Virus record (IMG/VR): IMGVR_UViG_3300005518_000008
Coordinates: 1 to 45,971 of that record
Source: a virus
Direction: 5' to 3' (one strand)
DNA length: 45,971 nt
Position numbers and translations under genes: made by a program. The notes below the pieces were generated by a model. That model worked only from the letters and a program-made list of their open reading frames with translations, was not told the DNA's origin and ran no database searches. This document shows, piece after piece, positions 3,712 to 37,360 of this stretch (its first letter is position 1; every line of letters begins with the position of its first letter).

Positions 3712-5414
3712 TGAGCCTCCGACGCACTACACCGCTGACGTTGAATTCTTCCGGGCTGTCGGATGCGCTGGATGCCTCTAACGTTTTTGCCGGCGCCATG
3801 GCGTCGCTGGCCAACCTGATCCCAGACCCGTCGACCGCCAAACTATGGCAGTGTCGTCCGGCCAGCTTGGAGCTGGTTGACTTCGCCCGTGCCGGTAGTC
3901 CGTTCAGCTCAGGGTTTAGCTCCGGCTTCGCGGGGTCGACTTTCACGACGCCGATCGGGCCGATCTCATGCCTAAAGATTATCGGCAACGTGGCCTTCGG
4001 CATGGTGGACATCGAAGGCAACCCGAACGATCAGCCATTTGCCTATGATCTCGTGAACAACGCGTTCTTGCCTGTCACTGGCGCAGTAGCGGCTAATACA
4101 CCTGCTACACAAGCCGCGACCGGTGCCTGGACCACGCCAACCATGGACTTGGTTGGGACCAACTTGCTGGTTACCCATCCCGGCTTCAACGGTGCTGGCA
4201 ACGGCTACTTCGGCTGGTTCGATATTGCCAACCTCGCGGCGATCACTTGGAACAGCGGCAATCTGACGGGCGCGGTGACGTTTACGACCCCACCGGCTGC
4301 GGTGAAGAATTTCAACGGGCGGGCATACTGGATCACCAACCCGCCGACCGGCCAGCCGGCCTTGATTTACTCCGACGTGCTGGTGCCACGGAACGTGACC
4401 AACGCTAACCAGATCCTGACGTTCGATGACAACGTGCCGCTGACCGCGCTCGCCGCCTTGGCGTTGCAGAACCAGCTTGGTGGCATTATCCAGGCCCTGA
4501 TTGTGTTCAAGGGCATCACCAATATGTACCAGATCACGGGTGATGCCGCGACCAGCAACCTCGCGCGCAACGCCCTCAACGTAGCGACTGGGACGCTCGC
4601 GCCGAACTCAATCACCCAGACGCCGAAGGGGATTTTGTTCGTCGCGCCGGATGGTTTGCGGCTGATCGACTTCACGGCGACAGTCAGCGATCCGATCGGT
4701 GTGGACGGCATGGGCAAAACGCTGCCGTTCCTTTACTCGACTGTGCCGACGCGTATGTATGGTGCGGCGAACGGCTCGATTTATCGGATCACCGTACAGG
4801 ATGGGTCGCTGCCGGCGGCACCGTTCGTGGAATACTGGTTTGACTGGACTCGCGGTGGACCGGGCCAGAAAGGCGTCTGGTCGGGGCCGCACACATTCCC
4901 GGCGCGCTGCATCGCTGCCTACAACAACACGTTCATCGTGGCGCCGCAGGCCACCAACGGCAAGCTGTTTCAGTCCGATTACGTGCAGACTTCGACGTCC
5001 ACCTTCACCGAGAACGGCACACCGCTGTCGTTCACCTGGACGACGAGCATGCTGCCCGACACCGACCAGATGTGTGAGAACGCCATGGTCGAGACCACGC
5101 TCTACATGGCTCTGGTAGCTGGCGGGACCTACGCGATCACAGCCCTTAACCAGGACGGCGCGGTGCTGAACTCGGCATTGATCGTTGGTGGCGGTACGCC
5201 GACAATCTGGGGGCAGTTCAACTGGGGGCAGGCGGTATGGGGTGGCGCTGCCAACGCGCTGTACCCGCGGCAACCCTTGTGGACAGCTCAGGTTATTTTT
5301 CGACGCATGCAGATCTCCGCGACCGGCCTCAGTGGTGCTGCGGTGCGGATCGGCAAGCTCCATATGCGTTATGAGCAGCTTGGTTACCTCCAACAGAGCG
5401 CGTCAGCAGCATGA
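3711..5414 (+). CDS. Tail hub / stabilisation-like protein (P22 gp10-type, beta-propeller-like)
   Basis: A 567-residue protein without a signal peptide, in contrast to its neighbours. It is beta-rich with repeated aromatic turn motifs (NGRAYWI, NNTFIVAP, GSIYRITV, WGQFNWGQAVWGG) in the manner of propeller blades. The start MSLRRTTPLTLNSSGLSD and overall length resemble the tail-hub or DNA-stabilisation proteins of short-tailed phages. It follows the esterase gene with the ATG inside the upstream stop, and its own stop overlaps the next ATG. The role, plugging or closing the tail tube and carrying fibres, is inferred from this resemblance and from context. Confidence 0.55.
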   Translation: MSLRRTTPLTLNSSGLSDALDASNVFAGAMASLANLIPDPSTAKLWQCRPASLELVDFARAGSPFSSGFSSGFAGSTFTTPIGPISCLKIIGNVAFGMVDIEGNPNDQPFAYDLVNNAFLPVTGAVAANTPATQAATGAWTTPTMDLVGTNLLVTHPGFNGAGNGYFGWFDIANLAAITWNSGNLTGAVTFTTPPAAVKNFNGRAYWITNPPTGQPALIYSDVLVPRNVTNANQILTFDDNVPLTALAALALQNQLGGIIQALIVFKGITNMYQITGDAATSNLARNALNVATGTLAPNSITQTPKGILFVAPDGLRLIDFTATVSDPIGVDGMGKTLPFLYSTVPTRMYGAANGSIYRITVQDGSLPAAPFVEYWFDWTRGGPGQKGVWSGPHTFPARCIAAYNNTFIVAPQATNGKLFQSDYVQTSTSTFTENGTPLSFTWTTSMLPDTDQMCENAMVETTLYMALVAGGTYAITALNQDGAVLNSALIVGGGTPTIWGQFNWGQAVWGGAANALYPRQPLWTAQVIFRRMQISATGLSGAAVRIGKLHMRYEQLGYLQQSASAA

Positions 5415-6454
5415 AGAAATCAGCTATCGGACTGATTTTAGCTCTTGGGCTAAGCGGGTCGGTGCAAGCGGGTGTCTCCTGCTCGGTGCCGTTTCAGCTG
5501 CAGAACAACACCGTGGCCGATGCCACGCAGGTGATGGCGAATTACAACGCCCTGATCACTTGCCTTGGCAACGCGGCTTCGGCCGGTGCCAACAACGACA
5601 TCACATCGTTGAATGCGCTCTCAACGCCTATCCCACTCTCGGAGGGGGGATCGACCATCTACATCGGCGGTACGTCGACCGGCAGCGCCAATGCGCAGCT
5701 TATCGCCAGCACCACGCCGACTGGCTTTTCACTGACAGCGGGCAAGCGGGTGACGTTCATCGCCGGGTTCTCCAACACCGGAGCGACCACACTCAACGTT
5801 AATAGCCTCGGTGCAATCAATCTTTATCGCCGTACACAGCTAGGCATCTCGTCTGTCGTTGGTGGGGAGTTGGTGGTCGGCCAGCTGGTCGAGGCGGTCT
5901 ATGATGGCTCCCAGTTCCAGCTGCTCAACCAGGCCCTGGTCGGCGAGGGGCGCGATTGGTTCACGCTTACAGCGCCTACAGGCTGGCTGTTCCGTGATGG
6001 TTCGTCGCTCCTGCGCACCGATTATCCAGACTTGTTTGCGGTCATCGGGACCACCTACGGCGCGGTGGATGGGACGCACTTCAGCCTTCCCGACGAACGT
6101 GGGCGACTGTCGGCCATGCGCGACACCGTTGGCCGGATGACCACGACTTGCCCAGCGGCTGCTACGCTTGGAACCGGCTGCGGCGGGCAGACGACTGCGC
6201 TTGGAACAACGAATTTGCCTGCTTACACGCCTAGCGGCAGCATTGCTACGGGGGTGCGAGGTGACGCCATCGTTATTGGAACGCCGGGTGCTGGGCAATC
6301 CAATTATACGGGCGGCGTAGCGGTGCCTCAGGCAAGCAAGACGGGCGACGACGGTACCTTGGCAGTCTTTACCGGAACAGCGCAGGGAGGTGTCGCAACT
6401 CCGTTCGCGATCCTGGATCCATCCCTGATCGTCAACAAGATCATCAAGTATTGA
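5411..6454 (+). CDS. Tail fibre with phage tail collar domain and N-terminal signal peptide
   Basis: A 347-residue protein. Residues 1-20 (MKKSAIGLILALGLSGSVQA) are a strong Sec signal with an AxA-type cleavage site. The middle is a fibre-like region (GANNDITSLNALSTPIPLSE, then ASTTPTGFSLTAGKRVTF). From about residue 185 the sequence WLFRDGSSLLRTDYPDLFAVIGTTYG followed by HFSLPDERGRL matches the phage tail collar domain (Pfam Collar, PF07484), which caps fibres and binds the receptor. The combination of collar domain and export signal is odd. The ATG sits in the overlapping stop of the hub gene. Confidence 0.75.
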   Translation: MKKSAIGLILALGLSGSVQAGVSCSVPFQLQNNTVADATQVMANYNALITCLGNAASAGANNDITSLNALSTPIPLSEGGSTIYIGGTSTGSANAQLIASTTPTGFSLTAGKRVTFIAGFSNTGATTLNVNSLGAINLYRRTQLGISSVVGGELVVGQLVEAVYDGSQFQLLNQALVGEGRDWFTLTAPTGWLFRDGSSLLRTDYPDLFAVIGTTYGAVDGTHFSLPDERGRLSAMRDTVGRMTTTCPAAATLGTGCGGQTTALGTTNLPAYTPSGSIATGVRGDAIVIGTPGAGQSNYTGGVAVPQASKTGDDGTLAVFTGTAQGGVATPFAILDPSLIVNKIIKY

Positions 6455-33273: not shown

Positions 33274-33439
33274 TGAGCCGGTTTTTGTGCGTACACCGAT
33301 GCTCACCAAGCCGTATTTGGTGTTATTGCCCGAGCACATCAGCGATTGGGATCTCGTTTGCAGGGCGCGATCCATGTTTCCGTGGGTGCAGCTTGTTGTG
33401 CAGGAACGTCTGCCTACTGAGACGGATTTGGGGTGGTGA
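33266..33439 (+). CDS. Small protein before the portal, 57 aa
   Basis: MDNEPVFVRTPMLTKPYLVL followed by LPEHISDWDLVCRARSMFPW and VQLVVQERLPTETDLGW. The start overlaps the stop of the upstream small gene and the stop TGA ends two bases before the portal ATG. It fills the gap between terminase and portal exactly; its role is unknown. Confidence 0.65.
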   Translation: MDNEPVFVRTPMLTKPYLVLLPEHISDWDLVCRARSMFPWVQLVVQERLPTETDLGW

Positions 33440-33441
33440 GT

Positions 33442-35646
33442 ATGGCTGAAGACCTAGATGACGATCTGGACGAGGACGAAGAGGATCCCAAGATCTCCGC
33501 GCGCAAGGAGGACTTGTCCGGCAAAAAGCGGATCAAGGAGGATCTGCTCGACCTGTTCGCCGAGATTGACAAGGGGTTCCAGCAGCAGTGGGAGCGGTCT
33601 AATGGGCAGATGGACTACTGGGACATCTACAATTGCAAGCTCACGTCCAAGCAGTTCTACTCGGGTAACTCTAAGATATTCGTCCCCATCGTCCACAACG
33701 CCATCAACGCCCGCAAGACGCGTTTTACCAATCAGATTTTCCCGCAGTCCGGGCGTTATGTCGAGGTTACTTCGTCAGATGGTACGCAGCCTGACGCGCT
33801 GACTGCGCTGTTGGAGCACTATGTGCGCAGGGCGCAGCTGCGGACGAAGGTGATGCCGGCGCTGGTGCGCAACGGCGACGTCGAGGGGCAGTACAATCTC
33901 TATGTCTCCTGGTGCGAGCGCACGCGCAACGTGACGTGGCGCAGCAAGTCCTTGCCGCTCATGCAGGACGACAGCGGCGAGCATGTTCCAAACCCGGCTG
34001 CCGAGGAGGTGGAGGACATCGAGGAAGAGGAGATTGAGATCGCCCACCCCGAGGTGGAGGTGATCCCGGACTCCGATATCTTAGTTTTGCCGTCGACTGC
34101 CGACACGCTGGAAGAGGCGATCGCCTGCGGCGGGTCGGTGACGATCATCCGGCGCTGGGGTAAGGCCAAGATTCGGCAGATGGTCCGCGACGGGGTGATT
34201 CGCAAGGACGTTGCGGAGGAGCTGATCGAGCAGCTCTCGACCAAGGACCCTCCGGCTTATGTCAACGCAAAGGGGCACCATGTCGATGCAGCGGGTATCC
34301 AGGAGAAGACGGACAGCTCTCCCAGACATCTACTCGTCTATGAGACCTTCACCGAGCTTAAGATCCGGCGTGGCGAGCGACGAGTATGCCAGGCGTTTTA
34401 CGGTGGCGAGCAGAAAATTCTTGGGTGTCGACGTAACCCCATCTGGAGTGACCGCTTGCCTCTGCTTTCGGTGCCTGTCGAGAAGGTATCAGGAGCTTTC
34501 AAAGGCCAAAGCAAAGTACAGCCCTGTGCCGACCTCCAGTACGCCGCGAATGATGCGGTGAACGAAGCCTGGGACAGTGCTGCTTACGCATTGATGCCGG
34601 TGGTCATGACCGACCCGATGAAGAACCCGCGGGTGGGGTCGATGATCCTGTCGATGGCCGCGGTGTGGGAGACCTCGCCTGCGGACACCAAGATCCTGGA
34701 GTTCCCGCAGCTGTGGCAGCACGGGTTCGAGATGGTGGCGCAGTGTACCAGCGTGATTTCCCAGACCCTCAGTGTCTCTCCCGCGGCAATTACTTCCGGG
34801 GGGCATGGGCGCCTTGGTGGGGAAAAGCCTACTCAGGCAGAAGTGGCCCAGGAGCAGCAGGTCGATATTCTCTCGACGGCGGATGCGGTGACTGTGATCG
34901 AGGAGGGGATCCTGACTCCGATGCTGGCACTGTTTATCGAGCTGGACCACCAATATCGGGAAGAGGACTTGACTGTGCGCCAGTACGGCGAGATGGGCGT
35001 GCGGGCCAACATGGAGAAGATCCCGCCGATTCAGATGGACAAGAGGTTTGACTTCCGATGGTTTGGTGTCGAGCAAGCGCGATCGGCGCAGCAGATCCAG
35101 CAGCAGATCGCGGGGATGAACGTGATCCGCGGCATACCGCCGCAGCAGCTCAACGGCTACCAGATCAACCTGGTGCCGGTGATAACGCAGCTCGTAGAGA
35201 ACACCTTTGGGCCAAGGCTTGCACCGCTTATTTTTGTATCTCCAGAAGAACAAATGCCTGTTCCTGTCGACCAGGAGAATGCGCTCTTGATGTCTGGGTT
35301 TGAGGCGCCTACGCACCAGATGGACGACGACACGGCGCACATCCAGGGGCACCAGGCGGCGCTTCAGCAGATGGAGATGGCCGGTGAAAACAAAAACAAG
35401 AAGAAATTCCTCACACACATCTGGCGTCACGTCCAGCAAGCGCAGGCGAAGCCGCAAGCCGCGCTCGCGGCGCAGAACCCGATGCAAGGCGGTGAGCCGG
35501 GAGTACCTGGAGGCGCGGGTCCGGGTGTGGCAGGAACTCCGCGGATTGGTGCACAGCCTATGGGTCCAAGAACGCAAGGCCCTGCGGGGATGATCCACAA
35601 GGATCAGATGCAGGATCCAGCAGCGATGCCGCGGAAGATCGCGTAG
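33442..35646 (+). CDS. Portal protein (head-tail connector)
   Basis: A 734-residue protein. An acidic N-terminus (AEDLDDDLDEDEEDP) leads into a portal-like body: GQMDYWDIYNCKLTSKQFYS, KIFVPIVHNAINARKTRFTN, EVIPDSDILVLPS (the wing region), QCTSVISQTLSVSPAAITSG, and a Gln-rich C-terminus (QQIQQQIAGMNVIRGIPPQQ) ending in a Pro/Gly tail. Size and place right after the terminase fit a short-tailed phage portal, the dodecameric ring through which DNA passes. ATG 33442 is preferred over GTGs just upstream. Confidence 0.85.
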   Translation: MAEDLDDDLDEDEEDPKISARKEDLSGKKRIKEDLLDLFAEIDKGFQQQWERSNGQMDYWDIYNCKLTSKQFYSGNSKIFVPIVHNAINARKTRFTNQIFPQSGRYVEVTSSDGTQPDALTALLEHYVRRAQLRTKVMPALVRNGDVEGQYNLYVSWCERTRNVTWRSKSLPLMQDDSGEHVPNPAAEEVEDIEEEEIEIAHPEVEVIPDSDILVLPSTADTLEEAIACGGSVTIIRRWGKAKIRQMVRDGVIRKDVAEELIEQLSTKDPPAYVNAKGHHVDAAGIQEKTDSSPRHLLVYETFTELKIRRGERRVCQAFYGGEQKILGCRRNPIWSDRLPLLSVPVEKVSGAFKGQSKVQPCADLQYAANDAVNEAWDSAAYALMPVVMTDPMKNPRVGSMILSMAAVWETSPADTKILEFPQLWQHGFEMVAQCTSVISQTLSVSPAAITSGGHGRLGGEKPTQAEVAQEQQVDILSTADAVTVIEEGILTPMLALFIELDHQYREEDLTVRQYGEMGVRANMEKIPPIQMDKRFDFRWFGVEQARSAQQIQQQIAGMNVIRGIPPQQLNGYQINLVPVITQLVENTFGPRLAPLIFVSPEEQMPVPVDQENALLMSGFEAPTHQMDDDTAHIQGHQAALQQMEMAGENKNKKKFLTHIWRHVQQAQAKPQAALAAQNPMQGGEPGVPGGAGPGVAGTPRIGAQPMGPRTQGPAGMIHKDQMQDPAAMPRKIA

Positions 35647-36767
35647 TGGGGACCCTTGCTTTCCTTGTCACGATTGCTTTTGTCTCCCCGTTTCCTGATG
35701 GCGCTCTTGCACCACGTTGGGTGGTGCTGTCGATCGCGGTGCCCGGACTGCTACTATGTCTTCCTCGGCTCCCTCGTCTGTGTTTTGGGCATTGGCTGTT
35801 TGGTGCTTTTTGGTGTGTTTGTGGGCTATCCATCCTGTGGACGCCCGACGTCTTCGATGGTCTCTATATTTATTGGGGATTCACTCTGTTTGGCGGGTTG
35901 TTGCTGACCGCACCGAGCGATTTGCGGCCTATTTTCATTGGTGCCGGCTGCGCGCTGGCAATCAACAGCGTGTTTGTGCTGCTCCAGGTCTTGGGCTACG
36001 AACCGGTGACGCAGGCGGTGCCGCCCGCGGGGCTGTTTTTCAACAAAAATGTTGGCGCTGAGGCGACAGCTCTGGTTATAGTGGGGTTGCTCTGCTCTCG
36101 TCCAGCAGAGGTGCGCGGACCTGGATGGAGAGGGATGCTGCTTGCAGGTGCCGGCAGCGTCCCTCTTCTCGTTCCGCCACACAGTCGAGGGGCAATTCTT
36201 GCATTTTGCGTTGCTGTGACCGGCTGGCTCTGGTCAAAACACCGCTTTATTGGGATTTTGGTTGCAATCCTCGCTGTAGGTCTCCTTTCAAGACTTGCTT
36301 TCGACATTTCGCGCTGGGAAAGCTCGTCTTCCAGGCTTGCTTTCTGGGTGAACGCACTGGGAACGTCCAATTTTTGGGGGCACGGGCTCGGTTCGTTCCG
36401 CTGGACCTATCCATGGTTCGAATATGCCCACAACGATCTGATTCAGCTGCTGTTTGAGGTGGGCGTGCCCGGCTTGTTGCTGTTTTGCCTATTTCTCGGT
36501 TACTGTTTGCGTCATGGTGCGCTGTCGGAGCGACTCGTGCTGACGGCATTCATCGTGGAGGGGTTCTTTGGCTTCCCGCTCTACAGCCCAGTCACCACTT
36601 TCCTTGTGGCTTGTACCGCAGGTAGCGTTCTGCGTCGTCGGTGTGCTGTACGCGTTCCTCTCGATCGGGGCGAACGTCCAAGCGATGCGTGCTTCCTGGA
36701 TACGCGATCAGCAGAGCGCGCAGACGCTTATTTTCTACCAGCACGCAGGCGCTCTTTTTCCCTTTAA
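35646..36767 (+). CDS. O-antigen ligase/polymerase-like membrane protein, probably frameshifted
   Basis: A 373-residue protein starting with GTG inside the portal stop. About ten hydrophobic spans are visible (GTLAFLVTIAFVSPF, VVLSIAVPGLLLCL, IYWGFTLFGGLLLTA, and so on). The motif YAHNDLIQLLFEVGVPGLLL near 260-280 and the earlier PPHSRGAILAF near 177 are hallmarks of the O-antigen ligase (Wzy_C/WaaL) family, which joins or polymerises surface sugar chains at the periplasmic face. After about residue 325 (SPVTTFLVACTAG) the frame becomes charged, while the next frame (36568-36930) continues with a membrane span, so the true protein is probably split by a frameshift. Such a gene in a phage suggests serotype change. 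Confidence 0.75.
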   Translation: MGTLAFLVTIAFVSPFPDGALAPRWVVLSIAVPGLLLCLPRLPRLCFGHWLFGAFWCVCGLSILWTPDVFDGLYIYWGFTLFGGLLLTAPSDLRPIFIGAGCALAINSVFVLLQVLGYEPVTQAVPPAGLFFNKNVGAEATALVIVGLLCSRPAEVRGPGWRGMLLAGAGSVPLLVPPHSRGAILAFCVAVTGWLWSKHRFIGILVAILAVGLLSRLAFDISRWESSSSRLAFWVNALGTSNFWGHGLGSFRWTYPWFEYAHNDLIQLLFEVGVPGLLLFCLFLGYCLRHGALSERLVLTAFIVEGFFGFPLYSPVTTFLVACTAGSVLRRRCAVRVPLDRGERPSDACFLDTRSAERADAYFLPARRRSFSL

Positions 36768-36930
36768 GAGCAGCTTTCGCGACGTGGCGGCGATCTACGC
36801 GACCTACGCAGTTTCGCGCGGGATGTTGTCTTCCGACGTTGCTTTAGCCGAAGTTGAGAAAGCATTGATCTTCCATCCCAATTATGCGATTTTGCGGGTT
36901 ATGGCTGAGCGTTTGAGGAGGGCGGAATGA
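36568..36930 (+). CDS. Out-of-frame C-terminal part of the O-antigen-ligase-like protein
   Basis: This +1 frame has no good start: only a TTG at 36568, and the first ATG lies well inside. It overlaps the ligase-like frame by 200 bases. It contributes VAFCVVGVLYAFLSIGANVQ, a membrane span exactly where the other frame turns hydrophilic, then a soluble tail (RDVAAIYATYAVSRGMLSSD, VEKALIFHPNYAILRVMAER) like the ends of ligase-family proteins. Most simply, both are one gene disrupted between about 36595 and 36640. A programmed shift or an independent small gene is possible. Confidence 0.55.
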   Translation: MASRSTAQSPLSLWLVPQVAFCVVGVLYAFLSIGANVQAMRASWIRDQQSAQTLIFYQHAGALFPFKSSFRDVAAIYATYAVSRGMLSSDVALAEVEKALIFHPNYAILRVMAERLRRAE

Positions 36931-37118
36931 GGCAAGTCCTTTGGATGGCGCTTGGCGCGGCGATCGCCGCGGCGGTGGGAGCTGCAGTGGCTCAGAACCC
37001 GACGCCTAACGTCCTTCCGGGCTGTGTCTACAACCTCACGCCACCGACGCTGTCCAACGGGCAGCAGTCCGTGTTGCAGTGCGATAGCACAGGTGCTTTG
37101 CGGGTGACGACGTCGTGA
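36927..37118 (+). CDS. Small exported protein, 63 aa (paralogue 1)
   Basis: RQVLWMALGAAIAAAVGAAV, with an AQ cleavage site, is a signal peptide. The mature part CVYNLTPPTLSNGQQSVLQC then DSTGALRVTTS shares its pattern (YNLxPPxLSxxQ...DSxG.xR) with the next gene, so the two are tandem paralogues. The ATG overlaps the end of the preceding frame and its stop overlaps the next GTG. A short secreted beta-type peptide of unknown function. Confidence 0.65.
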   Translation: MRQVLWMALGAAIAAAVGAAVAQNPTPNVLPGCVYNLTPPTLSNGQQSVLQCDSTGALRVTTS

Positions 37119-37360
37119 AACGCTGGATTTTCCTTGCAGTTTTGGTCTTTGCGGGATCTGCGGTTGCGCAAAATCCGCAGCAGCTGTGGGGGCTCATCTA
37201 CAACCTAGTTCCACCGATGCTGTCCGACCGCCAGACGACGGTTTGGCAAGGCGATTCGAGCGGCAAGGTGCGCATGAACGGGCTCGGACCGCCTCCTGCT
37301 TGCGACGGCACTATCGATCTTTCAACCGGCTGTGTCTTGCCGACGTTTAGAGGGCTCTAG
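37115..37360 (+). CDS. Small exported protein, 81 aa (paralogue 2)
   Basis: Starts with GTG; KRWIFLAVLVFAGSAVAQN is a signal peptide. It repeats the mature motif of paralogue 1 (IYNLVPPMLSDRQTTVWQGD) and adds a tail with two cysteines (PPACDGTIDLSTGCVLP). Similar short modules with QxDSxG occur at the start of larger phage fibre proteins, so these two may be detached N-terminal modules. Confidence 0.65.
   Translation: MKRWIFLAVLVFAGSAVAQNPQQLWGLIYNLVPPMLSDRQTTVWQGDSSGKVRMNGLGPPPACDGTIDLSTGCVLPTFRGL

Follow-up and report, generated by a model that had tools for sequence, protein, structure and literature searches.

We examined the genes that follow the portal gene in a soil phage, the 45,971-base virus record IMGVR_UViG_3300005518_000008, the whole of which is called the window here. 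The window codes for terminase, portal, capsid, tail-fibre, DNA polymerase, helicase and primase, and no tRNA was found over its 45,971 bases. A gene for an O-antigen-ligase-like protein (gene A, 373 codons) runs in frame 0 from a GTG at 35646 to a TAA at 36767. A second coding region (gene B, 36568-36930) begins within the late part of gene A and is read in the +1 frame. We consider it probable that these are two overlapping late genes, with gene B separately initiated and paired with the ligase. The features of the pair are as follows.

35646..36767, + strand: gene A, O-antigen-ligase-like (Wzy_C) gene in frame 0; Pfam PF04932 match above the gathering cut-off and fold match to WaaL (7TPG)
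36426..36473, + strand: ligase motif AHND...EVGVPG; from sequence, alignments and start scan
36557..36563, + strand: Shine-Dalgarno-like GGAGGGG before gene B; seen in the sequence, similar in L041, L044 and L045
36568..36930, + strand: gene B, overlapping +1-frame gene with a proposed TTG start; purifying selection in relatives, AlphaFold2 and Foldseek
36621..36635, + strand: handover zone between the two frames, codons 16-20 after the FPL motif; BLOSUM profile and phase tables
36625..36702, + strand: predicted membrane helix of gene B (approximate); hydrophobic stretch and AlphaFold2 helix
36636..36767, + strand: frame-0 extension past the handover, an unconserved and predicted disordered passenger; similarity at random level, predicted local distance difference test (pLDDT) 44-55
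36715..36924, + strand: four predicted TPR-like helices of gene B; AlphaFold2 model and Foldseek

A preliminary description of this locus had placed an O-antigen-ligase-family gene directly 3' of the portal gene, among structural genes. This placement holds, as the GTG of gene A overlaps the portal stop codon by one base (TAGTG) and its product matches Wzy_C (PF04932) with an E-value of 3.5e-8 and 33.8 bits, above the cut-off of 31.7. Among related loci (given L numbers), L011, L014 and L093 also exceed the Wzy_C cut-off, L041 falls below it and L045 has no match. The ligase-family motif YAHNDLIQLLFEVGVPG is found where it had been located, and the HN-X9-GVPG of the window fits H[NSQ]X9GXX[GTY], the motif pattern of the O-antigen ligase/Wzy_C family. 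Residues R181, R230 and H262 are invariant in 17 aligned rows. An AlphaFold2 model of gene A, for which 17 phage sequences were used, has high confidence up to about residue 334 and a pLDDT of 44-55 beyond it. Frame 0 does turn charged after SPVTTFLVACTAG, as had been remarked. The top structural match of the model is WaaL (7TPG; rank 1, Foldseek E-value 1.9e-5), with a VIA-align Z of 20.4 over residues 1-334 (312 aligned, root-mean-square deviation 4.0, 16% identity), and the next fold family, FtsW/RodA, reaches a Z of about 11. Since the frame-0 protein spans the WaaL fold without any +1 part, it is complete as a ligase core, and both profile and predicted fold place gene A in the Wzy_C/WaaL fold family. 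Polymerase, ligase and protein transferase activity are indistinguishable by sequence. None of the viral models searched matches the gene A fold well (the best, from Arthrobacter phage Faja, has an E-value of 0.04), no relative of the ligase was found in the GenBank phage collection, and PHROG has no match for the protein of either gene.

The +1 continuation, in line with its earlier reading as a membrane span and soluble tail, is conserved and is predicted to supply a membrane helix and a TPR-like domain. Specifically, the AlphaFold2 model of the part of gene B from 36604 has a pLDDT of 89 and consists of one long helix and four further helices, and its best PDB matches by Foldseek are TPR proteins, with a probability of 1.00 and an E-value of only 0.02. 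TPR sequence profiles in Pfam do not match the gene B of the window, and the corresponding tail of L056 matches TPR_11 at an E-value of 0.0013, under the cut-off. Gene B is thus TPR-like by predicted fold only. The tail is short in several other lineages, where it comprises the helix, ADLISYRG and LFPW or LFPF. No lipoprotein signal was seen in gene B. A weak match between gene B and replication genes of tortoise microviruses in the GenBank phage collection is probably due to chance.

Relatives were collected by portal, ligase and tail searches. The +1 layout of the window recurs in L011/L014, L041, L044/L045, L046, L047/L087/L089, L048/L050, L049/L051, L052-L055, L056, L084 and L127. These make up about a dozen divergent lineages, which have several different phage backbones and come from independent metagenomes, and the second open reading frame is always in the +1 frame. 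Ligase identity to the window is 26-48%, and wherever the 3' end of a phage lineage can be read, the switch falls at the same codons downstream of FPL. Per-codon BLOSUM scores over 11 divergent loci show that frame 0 is conserved to codon 20 and then falls to random level, and that the +1 frame is conserved from about codon 18. Substitutions follow the same division. Between L044 and L045 there are 12, 9 and 57 differences at frame-0 codon positions 1, 2 and 3 in the head of the gene and 10, 2 and 0 in the overlap; pooled counts are 89/49/248 before the handover and 51/20/23 after it (chi-square P 1e-11). In the overlap of three close pairs pooled, the +1 frame has 24 synonymous and 11 nonsynonymous differences and frame 0 has 5 and 30, where the neutral expectation is about 0.26 synonymous. 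These counts show that past the handover the +1 frame is under purifying selection and frame 0 is not. A lack of conservation of the +1 frame, which had been named as an outcome that would count against a connection between the frames, was thus not observed. Judged from sequence comparison, the two-frame layout is real and ancient and not a broken gene, and it is probably a two-gene unit.

Two observations on individual relatives belong here. The contig end of L041 cuts gene B, and the missing part was found at the opposite end, which makes a circular or circularly permuted genome probable; L041 and L040, which come from different metagenomes, both end within the same gene. In L046 (the same contig as L080) the ligase has an in-frame stop at 457-459 that replaces the second Trp of the LWWYIP of relatives, for which a mutation, an error and a recoded stop are candidates.

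The +1 frame had been described as having no proper start codon, which is too strong: in the window a TTG at 36568 lies just downstream of the nearest +1 stop and is preceded at 6 nucleotides by GGAGG (within GGAGGGG). GGAGG or GAGG also stands 6 nucleotides before a TTG in L041 and L044/L045. In most loci a GGAG and an ATG fall within the PE[YF]AHND codons, and in many relatives these codons of the ligase gene thus also hold the start signals of the +1 gene. Overall, a Shine-Dalgarno 4-mer accompanied by a start codon is present in the open +1 frame of 12 of 13 loci, and for several of them the chance probability is <=0.03. We assessed the openness of this frame by redrawing the frame-0 codons synonymously 2,000 times per gene. 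Over codons -10 to 15 all 14 loci are free of +1 stops, against a summed expectation of about 12, and over codons -46 to 15 the same is true of the 10 loci with an upstream ATG, against about 19 expected. In a control zone further upstream +1 stops are not depleted, and stops in the +2 frame are only slightly under expectation. Synonymous differences in frame 0 number 89/396 over codons -46 to 15 versus 474/1489 upstream.

Several points weigh against a separate start. The start of the window is a TTG whose own chance probability is 0.19 (0.39 in L041, 0.29 in L044), L056 is without a clear ribosome site, the GGAG is replaced by CCAGAG in L127, and the GGAG-to-ATG spacing of 10 nucleotides is slightly long. 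In addition, the +1 residues between start and handover are poorly conserved, with distant pairs within the null, and few of the lineages are fully independent.

A more distant phage relative, L093, a contig with head-tail genes, has a different arrangement. Its ligase gene (360-1508) ends in a TGA, and a second gene (1505-1900) begins at a GTG that overlaps this TGA and codes for a 131-residue membrane-helix/TPR-like protein. Two clearly separate proteins with their own starts had been named in advance as evidence against a single split gene or a programmed shift, and L093 has exactly such a pair. In the same contig, methyltransferase and glycosyltransferase-like genes at 4697-6420 adjoin the separate ligase and TPR-like genes.

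From these results we infer that gene B is initiated on its own. Overlapping genes are favoured over a +1 frameshift because the +1 frame is stop-free upstream of the handover and because starts are found there; openness before the handover is the deciding test, as a frameshift needs no such openness. Gene A would produce a complete WaaL/Wzy_C-type membrane glycosyltransferase, and gene B would start inside the late part of gene A at its own ribosome site in the +1 frame. By analogy with some bacterial ligases that carry a membrane helix and TPR repeats in one chain, the B protein would accompany the ligase in the inner membrane. Late in infection the pair would transfer a lipid-linked glycan to an acceptor and so alter the host-cell surface, for example to keep progeny or rival phages from binding (re-adsorption, superinfection). 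Genes A and B may therefore act together late, altering a surface glycan.

Within the overlapping-gene reading there is a variant, doubtful in our judgment and with a probability that overlaps that of the reading itself, in which A and B do not cooperate and B is an unrelated membrane protein with a role in, for example, exclusion or lysis. Profile comparison of gene B with the fused TPR tails of bacterial ligases demonstrates no sequence relation, and B is very short in several lineages, both of which are congruent with this variant. However, B and the ligase stay paired on unrelated phage backbones and again in L093, and among the tail-search matches no B was recognised without a ligase except in L130, whose 14-residue match is probably due to chance. 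A more elaborate form of cooperation, which we put forward only tentatively, is that the WaaL-like ligase and its TPR-like membrane partner assemble into a single late complex and are a widespread, undescribed phage module, the start of the partner lying within the AHND-motif codons, possibly with a minor frameshift-fused third form.

The alternative that gene A and the tail are joined by programmed +1 (or -2) ribosomal frameshifting at codons 16-20 after FPL (36621-36635), with unshifted ribosomes yielding the ligase alone, is unlikely. It was our initial preference, because the handover is sharp and bacterial analogues have the parts in one frame, and was demoted by the stop-free +1 frame and its starts. 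The handover does occur at one exact site in all lineages with conservation of the two frames barely overlapping, and conserved coding in a shifted frame after a fixed site is what a programmed +1 frameshift gene would show. A GGN-NNN-NTT pattern recurs at the handover, with a spacing reminiscent of that in the RF2 signal (PMC5009743), and the existence of bacterial ligases that hold ligase, helix and TPR in one frame also speaks for a fused product and against two separate ones. Moreover, +1 frameshifting is documented in structural genes of Listeria phages; as in those of phage PSA, and in RF2, the +1 continuation at our locus is conserved in relatives (PMC5009743). Unlike these cases, however, A/B has no conserved slip site, as GGN-NNN-NTT is all that codons 16-20 have in common over all loci, and it has start signals in the +1 frame. 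Downstream RNA structure, which is not always required, gave z of -1.5 to +1.75 over ten loci with no stable fold. Judged from the gene A model, a fusion would cut the last ligase helix down to about 12 residues ahead of the next helix. Finally, a frameshift leaves the stop-free +1 frame with start signals upstream of the handover unexplained, and L093 encodes two separate genes; with ribosome-binding starts in the +1 frame of most relatives, the programmed shift that had been suggested is thus the less likely option.

That a frameshift mutation or an assembly error simply disrupted gene A, as the appearance of this single sequence had suggested, is extremely improbable: contigs of many metagenomes and distant lineages share the same +1 arrangement, each frame is under strong purifying selection within its own part, and decay and assembly error are excluded because past the switch it is the +1 frame and not frame 0 that is under such selection.

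As a probable pair of overlapping genes, A/B can be compared with several known systems. WaaL (PF04932; 7TPG) and gene A share the predicted fold, the Wzy_C domain, a conserved Arg and the HN...G..G motif; they differ in that identity is 16% and that gene A lies in phage late genes and is followed by an out-of-frame TPR-like membrane gene. The bacterial Wzy_C proteins L059, L063 and L099 resemble the pair in running from ligase core to membrane helix to TPR-like repeats, but do so in one chain and one frame, and in them a linker separates the added helix from the last helix of the core. In Rz/Rz1 a second membrane-associated protein is encoded out of frame, within the first gene or across its end. 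The out-of-frame overlap is alike in A/B, whereas the proteins and their function differ, and the A/B arrangement by analogy resembles other out-of-phase overlapping phage genes. To our knowledge Wzy-beta has no overlapping partner. The Wzy-beta of P. aeruginosa O16 is described as a phage-encoded O-antigen polymerase (PMC4815439) and by that description is, as gene A is predicted to be, a phage-acquired membrane enzyme that acts on O antigen. In the searchable literature, which leaves most subscription papers out of scope, we found no description of this ligase/TPR-like pair. Automated gene calling would extend the ligase by a meaningless C-terminal tail and might overlook the second protein or place its start wrongly; therefore a conserved phage membrane unit is probably unannotated. 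The locus is also a clean case in which stop depletion upstream of the junction separates overlapping genes from programmed frameshifts, and the pair offers a test of why unrelated phage backbones place a surface-sugar enzyme among structural genes.

The upstream neighbour of the ligase gene is the following.

33433..35646, + strand: portal protein; PHROG 1216 portal, E-value 1.3e-11, 38 viral relatives

Among portal relatives, the ligase follows the portal gene in the window, L011, L014 and L041 and lies between portal and capsid genes in L045. On other backbones it has a T7-type capsid gene nearby in L047 and L084, a terminase gene in L056 and a connector gene in L048. Where portal relatives lack the ligase (L002-L006, L015, L026, L007-L010 and others), different cargo occupies the slot after the portal gene, for instance a gene for a conserved membrane protein of 89-90 residues or, in L026, an amidase-like gene, so this slot looks like an exchange point. 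Small tandem genes follow the ligase region in the window (36927-37118 and 37115-37360) and are also present in L002, L007, L011, L014 and L015; they have a secretion-like N-terminus and a common motif like AQxPxxLWGxIYNL.
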